Assembly: GCA_030824555.1 (NCBI GenBank)
Contig: JAVBXK010000011.1
Span: 62,001-126,000 of the forward strand
Origin: a bacterium
Lineage (GTDB): Bacteria; Pseudomonadota; Gammaproteobacteria; Burkholderiales; Burkholderiaceae_C
Length of the DNA: 64,000 nucleotides
Reading direction: 5' to 3'
Shown: positions 1,947 to 14,852 of the stretch, in pieces
How positions within the stretch are numbered: the first letter of the stretch is position 1
Layout: each line of letters opens with the position of its first letter
Position numbers and translations under genes: made by a program
The notes under the pieces: generated by a model
Databases searched by the model: none
What the model was told of the DNA's origin: nothing
What the model saw: the letters and a program-made list of their open reading frames with translations, nothing else

Positions 1947-2933
1947 ATGTCCAAGAAGCCTGTTCGCGTTGCTGTCACCGGTGCTGCCGGTCAAATCGGT
2001 TACGCCCTGTTGTTCCGTATCGCATCTGGCGAAATGCTGGGCAAAGACCAGCCCGTGATCCTCCAGTTGCTGGAAGTGCCCATGGAGAAAGCCCAGGAAG
2101 CGCTCAAGGGCGTGATCATGGAGTTGGAAGACTGCGCATTCCCTCTGTTGGCTGGCATCGAAGCGCACAGCGACCCCATGACTGCATTCAAAGACACCGA
2201 CTACGCCTTGTTGGTGGGTGCCCGTCCTCGCGGACCTGGCATGGAGCGTGCCGACCTGCTGGCTGCCAATGCTCAAATTTTCACAGCCCAAGGCAAAGCA
2301 CTGAACGCAGTGGCCAGCCGCAACGTCAAAGTGTTGGTGGTCGGTAACCCTGCCAACACCAATGCCTACATCGCCATGAAGTCGGCACCTGACCTGAAGC
2401 CTGGCAACTTTACCGCCATGCTGCGTTTGGACCACAACCGTGCTGCCAGCCAAATTGCAGCCAAGACTGGCAAGCCAGTGGCCGCCATCGAGAAGCTGGC
2501 TGTTTGGGGCAACCACTCTCCCACCATGTACGCCGATTACCGTTTCGCCACCATCGACGGCGTGTCGGTCAAAGAATCCATCAACGACGACGTGTGGAAC
2601 CGTGACGTGTTCCTGCCCACCGTTGGCAAGCGTGGCGCGGCCATCATTGCTGCACGCGGTGTGTCGTCTGCAGCATCCGCTGCCAACGCCGCCATTGACC
2701 ACATGCGTGACTGGGCCCTCGGCACCAATGGCAAGTGGGTCACCATGGGCATTCCTTCCAAGGGTGAGTACGGTATTCCTGCTGAAACCATGTTTGGCTA
2801 CCCTGTTACCTGCGAAGGTGGCGAATACACAATCGTCGAAGGTCTGCCAATTTGCGAGTTCTCACAGGAATGCATCAACAAGACCCTGAAAGAGCTGCAA
2901 GACGAGCAAGCTGGCGTTGCCCACTTGCTGTAA
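1947..2933 (+). CDS. mdh: Malate dehydrogenase
   Basis: NAD-dependent malate dehydrogenase, interconverting malate and oxaloacetate in the TCA cycle in the cytoplasm. The start at 1947 gives 328 residues beginning [21 protein letters not shown], which places the GxxGxxG nucleotide-binding loop in its usual position; the longer ORF upstream is a spurious extension. Other marks are the substrate-binding [14 protein letters not shown] segment and the catalytic His in WGNHSPTMY. The length fits the roughly 328-residue bacterial LDH-like MDH group. It is divergent from the GntR gene and followed 54 bp later by the CoA-lyase gene in the same direction. Confidence 0.97.
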
Positions 2934-2987
2934 CTCAGTTGTAACCAGTGCGCAGCCTTCTTCAGTATCAACCGTTCTGATCAGAGC

Positions 2988-3977
2988 GTGAACCATCCGC
3001 GCCACATCCTGCTGGGGGCTCAGGCATCGAGCCGAATGCTCCCGGTTTGTGACCACTACAGTGGTGTCGAGGTGCGGATGCGTAAAAGCCTGATCCTTCA
3101 ACGCGATCTGTTTGATGAATTCGGCGCATGTGTCGTCGATGTCACACTCGATTGCGAAGACGGTGCACCCGTCGGGGCTGAAGCTGAGCATGCTGCACTG
3201 GTTGCCGAGTTGTTGGCGGGTGCCGATACCCGCTGCCGTGTGGGTGTCCGCTTGCATGCTGTTGATCACCCCGCCTTCACGCAAGATGTGCAGACCATCG
3301 TCGGGCGTGCCGCGAAAGCTGGCTCGGTTGAGCCTGCCTACATCATGCTGCCCAAGGTCGAGTCCACCGCTTGCGTCGAGGTTGCTGTGGCCGCCATCGA
3401 TGCCGCAGGCGGCGGCGCGGTGCCTGTACATGTTTTGCTGGAGTCTCCTTTGGCGGTTCACCGGGCGCATGACATTGCAGCCCATCCTCGGGTGGAGTCG
3501 CTCAGCTTCGGGCTGATGGATTTCGTGTCTGCGCATGGTGGGGCCATACCCTCGTCCGGCATGGGGGTTGACGGTCAGTTTGCGCACCCTTTGGTGGTGC
3601 GTGCCAAACTGGAACTTGCAAGCGCTGCGCACGCCCATGGCAAGGTGCCTTCCCATTGTGTCGTGACCGAGTTTCGTGATCAGGATGCCTTGCGCGCAGC
3701 GGCACACAAGGCACGCGATCAGCTGGGTTACACACGGATGTGGAGCATCCATCCGGACCAGATCCGCACCATCGTGGATGTATTCGCCCCCGATGCGCGC
3801 GAAATTGAACTGGCTGCCCGCATCATCTGTGCGGCTGTTGGCAACGGTTGGGGCCCAGCCCAGGTGGATGGCACCTTGCACGACCGTGCCAGTTACCGTT
3901 ATTTCTGGCAGGTTCTTGAGCGCGCGCACCAGACTGGCCGCAGCCTGCCCGGCGAAGTTCGCCACTATTTTTCTTGA
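2988..3977 (+). CDS. HpcH/HpaI aldolase / citrate-lyase-beta-like CoA ester lyase
   Basis: TIM-barrel lyase of the CitE-like family, which cleaves or forms malyl-, citramalyl- or related CoA thioesters with Mg2+. The 329-residue product shows [10 protein letters not shown] (acidic metal ligand), MLPKVES, and [17 protein letters not shown] followed by [14 protein letters not shown], all family hallmarks. It starts with GTG. It sits between mdh and acnB, so it probably belongs to the TCA/2-methylcitrate-related operon. The exact acyl-CoA substrate cannot be read from the sequence. Confidence 0.85.
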
Positions 3978-3994
3978 CAACGACTGGAGTCCCC

Positions 3995-6586
3995 ATGTTG
4001 ATAGCCTACCGTGAACATGCTGCCGAGCGCGCTGCGCTGGGTATCCCCCCTCTGCCACTGGATGCCAAGCAGGTTGAATCCCTGATCGAACTGATCAAGA
4101 ACCCTCCTGCTGGTGAAGATGCTTTCCTGCTGGACCTGTTGACGCACCGCGTGCCCCCAGGCGTGGACGATGCCGCCAAGGTCAAGGCCAGCTTCCTGGC
4201 TGCCGTTGCCCATGGTGACTTGACAGTCGCGCTGATCAGCAAGGCCAAAGCCACCGAGCTGCTGGGCACCATGGTGGGTGGCTACAACGTGCACCCCCTG
4301 ATCGAGCTGCTGGACGATGCCGAAGTGGCCGGTGTGGCCGCTGCTGCGCTCAAGAAAACCCTGCTGATGTTCGACTTCTTCAACGACGTCGTCGAAAAAG
4401 CCAAAGCAGGCAACGCCTTCGCCAAAGATGTGATGCAGAGCTGGGCCGATGCCGAGTGGTTCACCAGTCGCCCCGAAGTGCCGAAGAGCATCACTGTGAC
4501 CGTGTTCAAGGTGCCTGGCGAGACCAACACCGACGACCTGTCGCCTGCGCCCGATGCCTGGAGCCGCCCCGACATTCCGCTGCACTACCTGGCCATGCTC
4601 AAAAACACCCGTCCCGACGCGGCTTTCAAGCCCGAAGAAGACGGCAAGCGCGGCCCCATGCAGTTCATTGAAGACCTGAAGAAAAAGGGCAACCTCGTGG
4701 CCTACGTGGGCGACGTGGTGGGCACCGGCTCCAGCCGCAAATCGGCCACCAACAGCGTGATCTGGGCCACCGGCCAGGACATCCCGTTTGTGCCTAACAA
4801 GCGTTTCGGTGGTGTGACCCTGGGTGGCAAAATTGCCCCCATCTTCTTCAACACCCAGGAAGACTCTGGCTCCCTGCCCATCGAAGTGGACGTGACCAAG
4901 CTGGAAATGGGTGACGTGATCGACGTGCTGCCCTACGACGGCAAAATCGTTCGCAACGGCGAAACCGTGGTTGAGTTCAAGCTGAAAAGCGATGTGCTGT
5001 TTGACGAAGTGCGCGCCGGTGGCCGTATCAACCTGATCATTGGCCGCAGCCTGACCGCCAAGGCCCGCGAGTTCCTGGGTCTGCCTGCCTCCACCCTGTT
5101 CCGTCTGCCCTCCGAACCCACCGCTACCAAGGCCGGTTTCACACTGGCACAGAAGATGGTTGGCCGCGCCGTCGGTCTGCCAGAAGGTCAGGGCGTGCGC
5201 CCCGGTACCTACTGTGAACCCAAAATGACGACCGTGGGCAGCCAGGACACCACTGGCCCCATGACCCGCGACGAGCTGAAAGATCTGGCTTGCCTGGGCT
5301 TCAGCGCCGATCTGGTGATGCAGTCTTTCTGCCACACAGCGGCCTATCCCAAGCCAGTGGACGTGAAAACCCACCGCGAACTGCCCAAGTTCATCAGCAG
5401 CCGTGGCGGCGTGGCCCTGCGCCCCGGTGACGGCGTGATCCACAGCTGGCTCAACCGCCTGCTGCTGCCTGACACCGTCGGCACCGGCGGTGACAGCCAC
5501 ACCCGCTTCCCTATCGGCATCAGCTTCCCAGCGGGTTCCGGACTAGTCGCTTTCGGTGCCGCCACGGGTGTGATGCCCCTGGACATGCCTGAGTCCGTGC
5601 TGGTGCGCTTCAAAGGCGAAATGCAGCCCGGCATCACCCTGCGTGACCTGGTGCACGCCATCCCGCTGTACGCCATCCGCGCCGGTCTGCTGACCGTGGC
5701 CAAAGCGGGCAAGAAAAACGTGTTCTCCGGTCGCATCCTGGAAATCGAAGGTCTGCCTAACCTGAAGGTTGAGCAAGCGTTCGAATTGTCCGATGCCTCC
5801 GCCGAGCGTTCTGCCGCCGGTTGTACCGTCAAGCTCAACCCCGAGCCAGTCAAGGAATACCTCACCAGCAACATCGTGCTGATGAAGAACATGATTGCCG
5901 ATGGTTACGCTGATGCCCGCACCCTGGCACGCCGCATCGAGAAGGTCGAAGCCTGGTTGGCCAATCCCAGCTTGCTCGAAGCCGATAAGGATGCCGAATA
6001 CGCAGCCGTGATCGAAATCGACTTGGCTGAGCTGACCGAACCCGTGCTGTGCTGTCCCAACGACCCTGATGATGCCAAGCTGCTGAGCGATGTGGCTGGC
6101 ACCAAAATCGACGAGGTGTTCATTGGTTCTTGCATGACCAACATCGGTCATTTCCGTGCAGCGTCCAATCTGCTGGCTGGCAAGCGTGACATCCCCGTCA
6201 AGCTGTGGCTGGCACCGCCGACCAAGATGGACGCACAGGAGCTGACCCGTGAAGGCCACTACGGCGTGTTCGGTGCGGCCGGTGCACGCACCGAAATGCC
6301 CGGTTGCTCGCTGTGCATGGGCAACCAGGCGCAAGTGCGCGAAGGTGCGACCGTGGTGTCCACCTCCACCCGTAACTTCCCCAACCGCTTGGGTAAAAAC
6401 ACCAACGTGTACCTGGCCTCTGCCGAGCTGGCTGCCATTGCGTCCAAAATTGGCCGTATCCCCACCGTGGCCGAGTACCAGGCCGACATGGCTGGCCTGA
6501 ACAAGGACAGCAGCAAGGTCTACCAATACCTGAACTTTGACCAGATTGAGGAATACGCGGACATTGCCAAGGGCGTGACCGCCTGA
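3995..6586 (+). CDS. acnB: Bifunctional aconitate hydratase 2 / 2-methylisocitrate dehydratase
   Basis: Fe-S dehydratase that isomerises citrate and isocitrate through cis-aconitate and can act on 2-methyl-cis-aconitate. The ATG at 3995 is preceded by GGAG at good spacing and yields 863 residues, close to the usual AcnB length. The protein starts with the AcnB HEAT-like domain ([16 protein letters not shown]). The swivel domain carries [24 protein letters not shown]. Cluster cysteines lie in QSFCHT and in the C-terminal GCSLCMGNQ. It starts 17 bp after the CoA-lyase gene and ends before a strong terminator. Confidence 0.97.
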
Positions 6587-10200: not shown

Positions 10201-10323
10201 CACAGCCGGGTCGGCTCTTGACAGGGCCTGTGCGCGGCACTGACTGGCTACACAGCAAACCCAGGTGGTTGCCCGCGGCGTGAATGACCTCGGGAGGGCC
10301 GCCGCTTGGTCATTCACAACGAC

Positions 10324-11625
10324 ATGATTTCCCAACTCCACCTTCAAAACTTCAAGGCCTGGCGTGACAGCGGGCCGGTGCGGCTGGCACCCGTCACCAT
10401 GCTGCTGGGCACCAACTCGTCGGGCAAATCCACTTTGCTGCAAAGTTTGCTGCTGCTCAAGCAAACGGTGGCATCACCCGACCGCACCGTGCACCTCAAC
10501 CTGCGGGGCGACGAGGTGAACGATTTTCTGGACTTCGGCCAGTTTGACAACGTGCTGTCTCACGCCTGTGACGGGCCACGCCAGTTCGGGCTGGCGTTCG
10601 ACTTTCAGCGCCCGCCGGGCGAGCGCGTCACGCAGGGTCGTTTTGACTGCCACTACGGCCAGACCGCCAGCGGTGCCGTGGCGGTGCAGGCGCTGGCATT
10701 GTCCAGCCCTGAGCAGCGGTTTCGGGCCATGCGACGTGACAAGGGCGCCTACTCGTTGTGGGTGGGTGACGACGCTCAACCCCGTGGCAAAGGCAGCCAT
10801 CTGGCCCCTGAGCGCTCCATTGCCCTGTCGGCCGACGCGATTGCGCTGCTGGGTGCCGATGGTGCCCACGCCCAGGACCTGAGCCTGGCCATGCGCCGCG
10901 AACTGGAAGGCCTGGTGTACCTGGGCCCCTGGCGGCGCAAGCCCGAGCGCGACCACGTCTGGCACAAAACCCAACCGGGCGATGTGGGCAGCGACGGGCA
11001 CCGCGTGGTGGAGGCGCTGCTGGCCAGCGCGCTGTTGAAAACGGAAGACCAGGGGCACACCCTGGCCCAGGTGTCGCACTGGCTGCAGGTCATGGGCATA
11101 GCCGACAGCCTGGAGGTGCGGCAGGTAGGCCGCTCCAGCCGTTACGAGCTGGTGGTGCACCAGCACGGCGTGGCCGCCAACTTGCTGGATGTGGGCATTG
11201 GCGTGCTGCAGGTGCTGCCCGTGCTGACTGCGGCGTACTTTGTGCCACCCGGCAGCACCGTGCTGCTGGAAGAGCCCGAAATCCACCTCCACCCGCTGGC
11301 GCAGGCGACCCTGGCCGACCTGTTTGTGCAGGTCAGCCAGCAGCGACAGGTACAGTTCATCGTGGAAACCCACTCCGAACACCTTTTTCGCCGCATGCAA
11401 ACCCTGATTGCCCGCGAGCAAACGCATCCCCACCATTGCCAGATGCTGTTTGTGGAGCGCCAGGGCGCCCAAGCCAAGCTGGTGCCGCTGGACGTGGACG
11501 ACTTCGGCACCGTGCGCAACTGGCCTGCCCAGTTCTTTGGCGACTCGGTCGGAGAAGCCCGTGAACAGGCCCGCGCCCGCGCTCAACGCACCCGTGAGGC
11601 AGCCAGCCGTGGCCAGGAAACCTAA
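10324..11625 (+). CDS. AAA/ABC-type ATPase with DUF3696 C-terminus
   Basis: Cytoplasmic SMC/ABC-like ATPase of 433 residues, the class used as sensor or motor in several nuclease-coupled defence systems. Walker A is GTNSSGKST (29-37). The signature-like segment is DVGIGVLQVLPVL. Walker B is TVLLEEPEIHLHP and the switch His is in IVETHSEHLF. The C terminus has VRNWPAQFFGD, typical of DUF3696. The start MISQLHLQNFKAWRD was preferred over an ORF start 18 bp upstream. Its 3' end overlaps the likely GTG start of the PIN gene, so the two are translationally coupled. It is the first gene of a three-gene unit with a nuclease and an RNA ligase. Confidence 0.9.
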   Translation: MISQLHLQNFKAWRDSGPVRLAPVTMLLGTNSSGKSTLLQSLLLLKQTVASPDRTVHLNLRGDEVNDFLDFGQFDNVLSHACDGPRQFGLAFDFQRPPGERVTQGRFDCHYGQTASGAVAVQALALSSPEQRFRAMRRDKGAYSLWVGDDAQPRGKGSHLAPERSIALSADAIALLGADGAHAQDLSLAMRRELEGLVYLGPWRRKPERDHVWHKTQPGDVGSDGHRVVEALLASALLKTEDQGHTLAQVSHWLQVMGIADSLEVRQVGRSSRYELVVHQHGVAANLLDVGIGVLQVLPVLTAAYFVPPGSTVLLEEPEIHLHPLAQATLADLFVQVSQQRQVQFIVETHSEHLFRRMQTLIAREQTHPHHCQMLFVERQGAQAKLVPLDVDDFGTVRNWPAQFFGDSVGEAREQARARAQRTREAASRGQET

Positions 11626-12184
11626 ACGCGTCACCCAAATGCGCGTGGTGGACACCAACGTGCTCATCGTGGCCAGTGCTGCCGATGGCGACTCGCCTTT
11701 CGATGCCGATGCCACGCCAGTGGAAGAAGCGGTGCTGCGCGAACAGGTGCTGGGCTGGCTGGAGGCCTTCGAGGCCGACCCCTACCGCCACGCGGTGATG
11801 GACCTGGATTGGCACATTGCCACCGAATACCGGCACAAACTTTCCGAACAGGACTACGGCTGGCTGGCGCTGCGGCACAAAATGGACCATAACCAAGTGG
11901 CCTGGGTGACGCTGGACATGGACGACGACGGCCATGCCGTGCTGCCCCCCAGCCTGTCCGCCGCCGTGACCGATCTGGCTGACCGCAAAATGGTGGCGGC
12001 GGCGCTGGAGGCGCTCAAGCAAGACCTGCCATGCAAGCTGACCAATGCCAGCGACACCGATTGGCTGGATTGCCAGGACGCCCTGCACACCGCCGGGCTG
12101 GACGTGGAAAACCTGCTGGCCACCTGGTTGCGCGCCAAATGGCGCACCAAACACCCCAAAACTGCCAAGCATAAAAAATCATGA
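11609..12184 (+). CDS. PIN-domain-like ribonuclease
   Basis: Predicted metal-dependent RNase of 190 residues. MRVVDTNVLIVASAAD carries the first PIN Asp. A central acidic/His segment reads VMDLDWHIATEYRHKL, and the late acidic motif is NASDTDWLDCQDAL, in the order and spacing expected of a PIN active site. The C terminus is strongly basic (RAKWRTKHPKTAKHKKS), suiting nucleic-acid binding. A GTG at 11609 with GAGG upstream overlaps the ATPase gene; an ATG at 11639 directly before RVVDTN is the alternative. Its stop overlaps the ligase start (ATGA). No antitoxin gene is adjacent, so it does not look like an ordinary VapBC toxin. Confidence 0.75.
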   Translation: MARKPKRVTQMRVVDTNVLIVASAADGDSPFDADATPVEEAVLREQVLGWLEAFEADPYRHAVMDLDWHIATEYRHKLSEQDYGWLALRHKMDHNQVAWVTLDMDDDGHAVLPPSLSAAVTDLADRKMVAAALEALKQDLPCKLTNASDTDWLDCQDALHTAGLDVENLLATWLRAKWRTKHPKTAKHKKS

Positions 12185-12861
12185 CCGACTTTTTTCGCTT
12201 TCCCCACACCCCCCACGTGGCCTGGCTGGCCACGGGCGAGCCACGCGACGACAAGGTGTTTTCACCCGACGAAGCGGACAGCCTGTTGACCGCCCCCATC
12301 GTGCTGGAAGAAAAGCTGGACGGGGCCAACCTGGGGTTTTCCATCTCGCCCGACGGCGTGTTGCGCGCCCAGAACAGGGGGCAGTACCTGCATCAGCCCT
12401 ACCACGGTCAGTTTGCCCGGCTGGGGCCGTGGCTGGCTGCCCACGAGGACAAGTTGTTCGACGCACTGGGCAGCCACCTGATGGCCTTTGGCGAGTGGTG
12501 CGCGGCCCGCCACTCGCTCGACTACGTGGCGTTGCCCGACTGGTGGCTGCTGTTTGACATTTACGACCGCCGCACCGGCCAGTTCTGGAGCACCACCCGG
12601 CGCAACGCATGGGCCGCCGAACTGGGCTTTGTGACCGTGCCCAGGCTGTATGCCGGTGAGGCCAACCTGCACCAACTGCGCGAATGGGTACACGACAGAC
12701 CCAGCCAGTTCCGCCACGGCTATCTGGAAGGGCTGGTGATTCGCCGTGAAAACGCTGACTGGCTGGAACAGCGCGCCAAGCTGGTTCGTGCCGATTTCAC
12801 ACAGGCCATCGACAGCCACTGGCGCAGCCGCGCGCTGGAGTGGAACCGGGTGGTGGTTTAG
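12181..12861 (+). CDS. RNA ligase (Rnl2-like nucleotidyltransferase)
   Basis: ATP-dependent RNA ligase family member (PF09414-like) of 226 residues, expected to seal 3'-OH/5'-phosphate RNA ends through a covalent lysyl-AMP. Motif I is EEKLDGANLGF with Lys45 as nucleophile. LRAQNRGQYL is the substrate-binding strand, FGEWCAARHSLDY and LLFDIYD are motif III, LEGLVIRRE is motif IV and KLVRADF is motif V. All nucleotidyltransferase motifs are present, so it should be active. It lacks the accessory C-terminal domain of phage Rnl2. The ATG overlaps the stop of the PIN gene, so it is coupled to the nuclease and ATPase. Confidence 0.88.
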   Translation: MTDFFRFPHTPHVAWLATGEPRDDKVFSPDEADSLLTAPIVLEEKLDGANLGFSISPDGVLRAQNRGQYLHQPYHGQFARLGPWLAAHEDKLFDALGSHLMAFGEWCAARHSLDYVALPDWWLLFDIYDRRTGQFWSTTRRNAWAAELGFVTVPRLYAGEANLHQLREWVHDRPSQFRHGYLEGLVIRRENADWLEQRAKLVRADFTQAIDSHWRSRALEWNRVVV

Positions 12862-12923: not shown

Positions 12924-14852
12924 ATGGCTGTTCGTGCACTCGTTACCCGTCTTTTGCACCATCCGTGCTTGTCTGTAGTGGGGTGCTTGTCGGCTGTCCT
13001 GCTGGCTGCACCCGCGCTGGCGCAGACCGCCAGCACCATGCGGCTGGGCACCAACCTGACGGAGGTCAACGACTATTCCACCGATCTTCCATTTGTCGAT
13101 GTGTTCAAAATGGCCCGCGACTGGTACACCAGCGCACCGGGTACCTTCGATACCGAAGAAGCCACTCGACTTGACAAAGATGCCCAGGGTTGGGTGCGCT
13201 CGCTCACGCCCACCGCCGGGCCAGCGGTGCGTTACACCAAAGCCTGTACGCTGATCTTTTCCATGGGACCGGTGTCGGGCGGTGCACTGGCCGGGCAGTA
13301 CCCTTACCCGGCAGGGGCTTATGTGGTGCGCTACGACGGCGAGGGCACGCTGGCATACGGGCTGGCCGCACGGCAAGATGCCGGCCAGTCCGCACCCGGG
13401 CGCGATGTGATCAACGTCACCCCGCAAGAACCGGGCATCGAGATCTGCATCACCGCCACCGACCCCCGTGGCATGGGCAACCCCCTGCGCAACATCCGGG
13501 TCTACCCGCCTGGTATGGAGGCCCTGGCGGCCACCGAACAGTTCCACCCCGACTTTCTGGCCCGCACCCAGGCGTTCAGCGTGCTGCGCTTCATGGACTG
13601 GATGCGCACCAACCACAGCACCCAGGCAGACGCCTCGCACCGGCCCCTGCCCACCGACCACAGCTACGCCACGGAACGGGGTGTGTCGGCCGAGGTCATG
13701 GTCGATCTGGCCAACCGCCTGGGGGCCATGCCCTGGTTCAACATGCCGCATGCCGCCACAGACGCCTACGTCACCACCTTTGCCACCGTGGTACGGGACC
13801 GGCTCGCATCTGGTCGCCAAGTTTACGTGGAGTACAGCAACGAAATCTGGAACGACCAGTTCAGCCAGGGACGCTTCATTGGCGACCAGGGGGTGGCACA
13901 GTTCGCGGGCCAGGCGGGCTCTGACTTTGACAAGCGGCTCAACCGTTTCGGCGAGCGCAGCGCACAGGTGTGCCAGCTCTGGCGCAGCGTGTTCGGTGCC
14001 GGGGCGGACCGCGTGCGGTGCGTGATGGGCGGGCAGGCGGCCAACACCTACATTGCCGAAACCGCGCTCGATTGCCCCATGTCCACCCTCAAGCCTTGCC
14101 GGAGCCGGGGCTTCCATGGCCTGGCCATCGCCCCCTATGTCGGCGACCACGTGGGCTTGCCAGCCTACCAGGCGACCGTGCAGGGCTGGACCACCCAGGC
14201 CGATGGCGGGCTGGCCAAACTGTTCAACGAACTGAACACCGGCAACGAACTGAATGACGAAGGCGGCGGCATGCCCGTGGTGCGCCAACGCATTGCCGCA
14301 CATGCCACGCTGGCCCGTGCGCAAGGGGTCCAACTGCTGGCATACGAAGGCGGTCAGCACCTGGTGGGCGTGGGCGCACCGGCTGATGTCGATGCCATCA
14401 ACACCCTGTTCGACGCCGCCAACCGCGATGCCCGCATGGGCACGCTTTACCGCGCCTACCTGGCGGACTGGGGCAGCTTGGGCGGGGGGCTGTTCATGCA
14501 CTTCAGCAACGTGGGCAGCTACTCGCGCTTTGGCCGCTGGGGGGCGTTGGAGATGGGTTCGCAGACCGCTTCACCCAAGTTTGACGCCCTGATGTCGGTG
14601 GCTGACACCGTGCACGGCGCGCGGTCGAACTGCCTGTTCGACTGGGCCCAAGGCCAGTTTGGCAGCCTCTTCGGCCAGGGCAGCACGGCGGGCACTGCGC
14701 CACCCTACACCTACCGCCTGTACGGCACTGGCAATGCGCTGGCCACGTCGTCGGCAGACCGCCAAGTGTGGGCGCTGGGACCGGTCACGGGCAGTGTCTT
14801 GGTCAGCGTGGGTGCCATGGCCGATTGGGTGGTGACCGCTGGTTGTGAGTGA
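12924..14852 (+). CDS. Secreted glycoside-hydrolase-like protein
   Basis: Predicted exported protein of 642 residues. The ATG at 12924 has GGAGG upstream. A signal peptide (LSVVGCLSAVLLAAPALAQ, cleavage after ALA) begins the protein. A beta-rich N-terminal region precedes a TIM-barrel-like segment with VYVEYSNEIWNDQF, where the Glu in EYSNEIW resembles the acid/base Glu of clan GH-A glycosidases. A later LLAYEGGQHL would supply the nucleophile Glu. Seven cysteines suggest extracytoplasmic disulfides. The substrate is unknown; it could be a cellulose- or exopolysaccharide-related protein. It is separated from the ligase gene by 62 bp and has its own ribosome site. Confidence 0.7.
   Translation: MAVRALVTRLLHHPCLSVVGCLSAVLLAAPALAQTASTMRLGTNLTEVNDYSTDLPFVDVFKMARDWYTSAPGTFDTEEATRLDKDAQGWVRSLTPTAGPAVRYTKACTLIFSMGPVSGGALAGQYPYPAGAYVVRYDGEGTLAYGLAARQDAGQSAPGRDVINVTPQEPGIEICITATDPRGMGNPLRNIRVYPPGMEALAATEQFHPDFLARTQAFSVLRFMDWMRTNHSTQADASHRPLPTDHSYATERGVSAEVMVDLANRLGAMPWFNMPHAATDAYVTTFATVVRDRLASGRQVYVEYSNEIWNDQFSQGRFIGDQGVAQFAGQAGSDFDKRLNRFGERSAQVCQLWRSVFGAGADRVRCVMGGQAANTYIAETALDCPMSTLKPCRSRGFHGLAIAPYVGDHVGLPAYQATVQGWTTQADGGLAKLFNELNTGNELNDEGGGMPVVRQRIAAHATLARAQGVQLLAYEGGQHLVGVGAPADVDAINTLFDAANRDARMGTLYRAYLADWGSLGGGLFMHFSNVGSYSRFGRWGALEMGSQTASPKFDALMSVADTVHGARSNCLFDWAQGQFGSLFGQGSTAGTAPPYTYRLYGTGNALATSSADRQVWALGPVTGSVLVSVGAMADWVVTAGCE

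Follow-up and report, generated by a model that had tools for sequence, protein, structure and literature searches.

Located on the forward strand of the window (the whole stretch of 64,000 nucleotides that was analyzed), between positions 10,324 and 12,861, are three intact open reading frames that encode an ATPase, a PIN-fold nuclease, and an RNA ligase (Table 1). Assignment of these genes to a DUF3696-type ATPase family, a PIN family, and an RNA ligase family with its characteristic motifs had been made in the original prediction, and it is borne out by Pfam, PADLOC, family alignments, and AF2 models. The dN/dS values relative to homologs are 0.23-0.43 for the ATPase, 0.27-0.41 for the PIN nuclease, and 0.14-0.20 for the ligase, and thus all three reading frames represent real genes under purifying selection. 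The GC content of the trio (65%) is not distinct from that of its flanks (60-65%). No tRNA genes were found in the 64-kb window, and a promoter/terminator scan yielded nothing informative.

Table 1 Coordinates of the three genes within the window
Feature	Position	Strand	Start and basis of assignment
OLD/AAA_21-DUF3696-type ATPase, HEC-03B-like	10324..11625	+	ATG start; PADLOC HEC-03B and Pfam
PIN-fold nuclease, HEC-03A-like, 181 aa, basic C-terminal tail	11639..12184	+	ATG start; family alignment, AF2 model, PADLOC
Minimal ATP-dependent RNA ligase (PF09414), 226 aa, nucleotidyltransferase domain only	12181..12861	+	ATG start; Pfam, motifs, predicted fold

The ATPase is recognized by the Pfam families AAA_21 (5e-23), AAA_15 (1e-21), and DUF3696 (29.8 bits against a cut-off of 22). 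It contains a Walker A motif, GTNSSGKST, with Lys 35 as its lysine, and a Walker B motif, LLEEPEIHLHP. The signature motif reads GIGVLQVLP, with a leucine at the position occupied by serine in 50 of 63 aligned relatives and by serine or alanine in most of them. Given this replacement, the copy in the window might be impaired or otherwise altered. In three other trios (L057, L058, and L061) the ATPase reading frame extends to only ∼331 residues and matches the C-terminal half of the profile; as judged from the reading frames, the N-terminal portions are missing or split. Positioned just 5' of the ATPase start, at 10280-10317, is a perfect 10-bp inverted repeat, GTGAATGACC / GGTCATTCAC, with an 18-nt spacer. 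A repeat of this kind has a chance of ∼1.5% per equal-sized piece of the window, and it is a possible operator or mRNA hairpin.

The second gene can begin at either GTG 11609 or ATG 11639. In the family alignment the start falls a few residues before the sequence VVDTN, which corresponds to the ATG. The ATPase and PIN genes are thus probably separated by a 13-nt gap; the overlap at 11609-11625 that had been proposed would be real only if the protein begins at the GTG. The second overlap that had been noted, between the PIN and ligase genes, does hold, for the ORF coordinates reveal the ATGA at 12181-12184. Within the PIN family, Asp 5, Thr 6, Asn 7, Asp 55, Glu 63, Asp 112, Asp 115, and Trp 142 are invariant, and Asp 139 is retained in more than 90% of the sequences. 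As had been anticipated, the catalytic acids therefore align with the family, and the set composed of Asp 5, Glu 63, Asp 112/Asp 115, and Asp 139 is intact in the window protein. The only Pfam signal is a weak PIN_3 match (0.015) that lies below the cut-off, and a search of the PDB sequences with the PIN profile matched nothing meaningful. The AF2 model of the protein has a pLDDT of 92.6 (the alignments used for the structure models left out plasmid-record rows). By probability, the leading PDB matches of the model are PIN proteins, namely VapC (5x3t and 4xgr, probability 0.69), 1o4w (0.54), and SMG6 (0.47), at weak E-values of about 0.1 that mark it as a divergent member. On the basis of the family alignment, the AF2 model, and the HEC-03A match described below, the gene product is confirmed as a predicted, divergent PIN-fold nuclease.

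The ligase displays a strong match to the Pfam RNA_ligase family (4e-32). Its five nucleotidyltransferase motifs, which are motif I (Lys 45 in KLDG), FGEW (103-106), FDIYD (125-129), EGLVIR (183-188), and KLV (200-202), are invariant across 49 sequences. The model of the protein (pLDDT 90) consists of the catalytic domain only and matches NgrRnl, archaeal Rnl3, REL1, and T4 Rnl2 first, with E-values from 1.7e-7. A phmmer search of the PDB with the ligase sequence alone matched nothing, whereas the ligase profile found Rnl3-type ligases. The nucleotidyltransferase fold and motifs are thus held in common with T4 Rnl2, NgrRnl (Rnl5), and archaeal Rnl3. Each of those subfamilies has an additional N- or C-terminal domain, however, whereas the trio ligase lacks an OB or C-terminal accessory domain. 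It may prove useful as a compact RNA ligase tool.

A comparison with the PADLOC models places the first two genes in a listed system. The ATPase matches HEC-03B (6.3e-85, the best of 142 models), and HEC-03A is the only match to the PIN nuclease in 5027 models (1.5e-5). A divergent trio ATPase attains 7e-133, and among the relatives that link the window PIN protein to HEC-03A, values extend to 3e-24 for a divergent trio PIN; the gene pair of HEC-03 is the same as that in the trio. HEC, in PADLOC naming, denotes a candidate embedded in Hma islands. HEC-03 as listed consists of an ATPase and a PIN protein without an RNA ligase, whereas the window trio has one, and this ligase matched none of the PADLOC models. 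In the literature searched, which did not extend to surveys of RNA repair, ABC ATPases, and PIN proteins, neither experimental or functional work on HEC-03 nor an earlier mention of the trio was found. Because the ATPase-PIN pair is that of HEC-03, the trio is a ligase-bearing variant and not the wholly undescribed system that had been proposed. What remains of that proposal is the ligase: as a regular third gene of the HEC-03 pair it appears to be new.

Other known systems are more remote. The ATPase is related to NsnB of Menshen (NsnABC; 1e-54) and to PDC-M55A (4e-58), and a GmrSD protein resembling NsnA/PDC-M55C lies near the trio in two loci. Kinship of the nuclease with these systems was considered and rejected, for the PIN profile gave no alignment to NsnC (hhalign probability 1%) or PDC-M55B. 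To our knowledge, no ligase occurs in Menshen or PDC-M55. With respect to Septu, the PtuA score is 27 bits versus a cut-off of 500, and the partner in the trio is a PIN protein rather than the HNH protein PtuB. With VapBC the trio nuclease shares, remotely, the PIN fold and its acidic residues. A VapB antitoxin gene is adjacent there; as had been noted, no gene for it accompanies the trio, the members of which are tightly packed with no gene between them, and control of the nuclease would instead fall to the ATPase and the ligase.

When 85,462 species genomes were scanned with the ligase, the search yielded 80 loci out of 121 relatives, to which two viral-collection contigs were added. In 77 of the resulting 82 distinct ligase loci the gene immediately upstream, on the same strand, encodes the PIN nuclease, and 65 of them also contain the ATPase gene; several of the gaps are contig ends. 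The synteny is thus conserved far outside of the source genome. Since these loci were collected by way of the ligase, a separate, ligase-blind sample of 398 Pseudomonadota genomes was searched with HEC-03A. Matches were found in 14 genomes, all with the ATPase and 10 with the ligase. A ligase-profile search of 299 genomes gave 10 close, full-length ligases besides that of the window, and every one belongs to those same trio loci. The hosts include many Burkholderiales, Zoogloea, Thauera, Nitrosomonas, and Thiorhodococcus, along with metagenome-assembled genomes labeled Verrucomicrobia, Chlorobi, and Holophagae, although labels of this type can be erroneous. The trio of a complete Rhodococcus plasmid includes a ligase of 44% identity, and the order and spacing of the genes are the same in Proteobacteria, Actinobacteria, and others.

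Neither the ATPase nor the ligase is indispensable, because four ATPase-PIN loci lack a ligase and nine PIN-ligase loci (L028, L044, L046-L049, L051, L053, and L081) lack the ATPase. The ATPase of the original concept, a breaker and a sealer under one ATPase, is dispensable in one clade, which retains only the PIN and the ligase. This clade, mostly Aquabacterium (support 99), occupies a fixed chromosomal place near the type II secretion genes gspA and gspB, and its gene pair is inherited vertically. No HEC-03B ATPase was detected elsewhere in the six of these genomes that were searched at 1e-20. In the limited sample, the PIN gene was seen only in ATPase-PIN, ATPase-PIN-ligase, and PIN-ligase combinations and never with neither partner, as would be expected if the nuclease is harmful unless controlled. 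Two close ligases stand alone: L082 adjoins an AlbA_2/Schlafen-type gene, and L084 is located in a restriction-modification region with a SecB-like gene. Both are probably remnants of lost trios.

The identity matrices of the PIN nuclease and the ATPase are strongly correlated (r = 0.91), whereas the correlation of the ligase with either is about 0.4. There are two diverged ATPase-PIN lineages. When these are used as labels, the label changes once on the PIN tree and 15 times on the ligase tree, and at least five of the latter changes are forced by well-supported branches. From the correlation and the single change on the PIN tree it follows that the ATPase and PIN nuclease constitute one co-evolving module. 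The repeated changes on the ligase tree identify the ligase as a second module, which has kept the third position while its partners were exchanged. As read from these trees, recombination of the ligase with the two diverged ATPase-PIN lineages has taken place no fewer than five times.

The trio also moves as a cassette, because the DNA match between the window and a relative from the same family (L007) covers 10324-12853 at 76% identity, with nothing matching just outside. In a congener (L009) the cassette has been lost: all that is left of it is 112 bp from the 3' end of the ligase gene (window 12745-12856, 86% identity), followed by a flank matching from 14852. Directly behind the ligase in the window, at 12924-14852 on the forward strand, is the gene for a predicted exported protein of 642 residues with no Pfam match; it is absent at the corresponding place in the congener.

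Trios are found on Azotobacter, Aeromonas, Tistrella, and Rhodococcus plasmids, of which those of Aeromonas and Rhodococcus are conjugative. The immediate neighbors of the trio on the conjugative plasmids of Aeromonas include AbiEii, Hok, and GASH genes. In 11 loci the ATPase gene overlaps a DrmMI (DISARM)/type-IIG-like methylase gene, abuts it, or starts no more than 51 nt past it; the methylases contain ∼1,300-1,500 residues (some are cut by contig ends). An SNF2-type helicase precedes one of these methylases, a GmrSD protein follows one trio, and HNH genes are found nearby in 16 loci. Models of pAgo, type III methylase, and Jet are matched by further genes near trios, at a frequency that may not exceed background. 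The breaker-plus-sealer design that had been envisaged is thus supported by the gene set, and its context, with plasmids and with methylase and AbiEii neighbors, is mobile and of the defense type. Regulation of the RtcR/CARF type was considered on account of a PADLOC RtcR-like gene upstream of the trio in four loci. The similarity is confined to the sigma-54 AAA+ portion, and the gene is regarded as an ordinary NorR-like neighbor because its N-terminus is a GAF domain. A two-gene ATPase-PIN pair (L113, PIN at 2536-3018) adjoins phage genes at 3582-6170 that include a P22-type portal and a phage lysozyme, and it apparently resides in a prophage.

Considered together, these features suggest that the trio is quite probably a defense or conflict system. 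The complete chain of events, in which the ATPase senses infection and controls the PIN nuclease, the nuclease cuts RNA, and the ligase reseals it, is a proposition that we hold in even balance. A useful model is PARIS, the ATPase of which, AriA, may be related to that of the trio (3e-23, far weaker than HEC-03B) and also has a small nuclease partner; AriB is a Toprim nuclease, whereas the trio has a PIN protein plus a ligase. By analogy, the ATPase and PIN nuclease would probably form a complex in which infection is sensed and the nuclease is held or released, as AriA does with AriB. Once freed, it would cut host or phage RNA, most likely an RNA of translation such as tRNA, and translation would stop. 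A metal-dependent PIN cut should leave 5'-phosphate and 3'-hydroxyl ends, which the ligase could reseal, thereby limiting the toxicity of leakage and allowing recovery. The repair of PrrC-type damage had been offered as the analogy, but PrrC cuts leave ends that require healing, and so the chemistry is wrong; a metal-dependent nuclease such as AriB fits better. Indeed, the ABC ATPase of PARIS sequesters a tRNase, and the tRNA cuts made by AriB leave 5'-phosphate and 3'-hydroxyl ends (PMC12409363). The main chemical uncertainty arises from VapC, whose cuts leave 5'-hydroxyl groups according to one paper (PMC6459853); ends of this type would not be directly sealable by the trio ligase. A precedent for resealing RNA cut by a toxin is the RtcB repair of 16S rRNA cleaved by MazF (PMC5408214).

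The gene neighborhoods of more distant ligases also bear on the chemistry of the ends. These ligases come from Pseudomonas, Variovorax, Bosea, Sphaerospermopsis, and Methylorubrum plasmids and from two chromosomes of the family, and nine of the 11 have close by a gene for an HD+AAA_33 protein, which we take to be an end-healing HD-Pnk enzyme (as in Runella HD-Pnk). None of the 11 has a PIN or trio-type ATPase gene nearby, and none of the trio loci contains an HD-Pnk-type gene. These ligases are the nearest relatives outside the trio, at about 29-43% identity. In the HD-Pnk pairs the partner is a healing kinase/phosphoesterase, and in the trio a nuclease takes that place. On the basis of these gene neighborhoods, the trio ligase appears to have swapped its end-healing partner for a nuclease. 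Since the trio ligase has a nuclease as its partner and lacks a healer, the simplest reading is that the PIN nuclease makes ends that are ready to seal, in keeping with the cut-and-reseal scheme outlined above.

An alternative, which we consider unlikely, is that the trio performs general RNA repair, with the PIN nuclease trimming ends broken by phage or host nucleases to 5'-phosphate and 3'-hydroxyl termini, the ligase joining them, and the ATPase sensing damage. Because the distant ligases accompany HD-Pnk enzymes, the ancestral function of the ligase group was probably RNA repair, and the PIN nuclease could have taken over from the healing enzyme as a non-orthologous substitute; the vertically inherited clade without the ATPase likewise has a housekeeping-like character. 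Trimming would lose nucleotides and spoil tRNAs, however, a repair system would not need the ATPase-PIN pairs that lack a ligase, and the trio contexts are mobile and of the defense type.

It is rather improbable that the PIN nuclease and ligase together excise, circularize, or recombine one particular RNA, such as a phage RNA or a guide-like RNA. In favor of this view, cutting and joining are closely coupled and are found together even where the ATPase is missing. Against it, the closely spaced genes have no visible conserved RNA gene or spacer between them, some ATPase-PIN pairs have no ligase partner, and the re-pairing of the ligase with diverged PIN proteins is better explained by a generic shared substrate than by a co-evolved RNA. 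Less probable still is a DNA-directed system within restriction islands, in which a PIN/FEN-like nuclease would attack phage DNA, by cutting or nicking it, and the ligase would repair nicks of the host: although methylase, HNH, and GmrSD-type genes adjoin the trio, DNA ligases match the ligase model only after the RNA ligases and with weaker E-values, the Pfam match is to RNA_ligase, and the structural matches to the PIN nuclease are RNases such as VapC and SMG6. That the ligase merely hitchhikes behind HEC-03 as a chance neighbor in defense islands is scarcely credible, for, notwithstanding the four loci without a ligase and the few ligases that stand alone despite available upstream sequence, all 10 close ligases of the unbiased sample lie in trios, gene order and spacing are the same across phyla, re-assortment has been repeated with the position kept, and the PIN-ligase pair is conserved without the ATPase.

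If sensing, cutting, and resealing are indeed combined in the trio, a function would be provided for the uncharacterized candidate HEC-03. RNA-cutting defenses are usually seen as one-way damage, with repair coming from the phage (T4 Pnkp/Rnl1 versus PrrC) or from separate host enzymes. A cutter and a sealer that travel together raise the testable question of whether a system makes its own damage reversible. More tentatively, and with some doubt on our part, the trio may represent a class of modules, for immunity or as toxins, that have a built-in antidote in the form of an enzyme able to reseal the cuts of the toxin, which would replace or supplement a binding antitoxin. Sequestration by the ATPase and enzymatic repair would then be two safety layers, each able to stand in for the other, on a single PIN nuclease, and the balance of cutting and sealing would set a reversible arrest of translation.

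A further observation concerns the distant ligases. Seven of the records (L112, L128, L130, and L144-L147) are plasmid-borne pairs of an RNA ligase and an HD+AAA_33 gene, two of them on Pseudomonas aeruginosa plasmids, and this pair is an RNA-repair module in its own right, found repeatedly on large plasmids.
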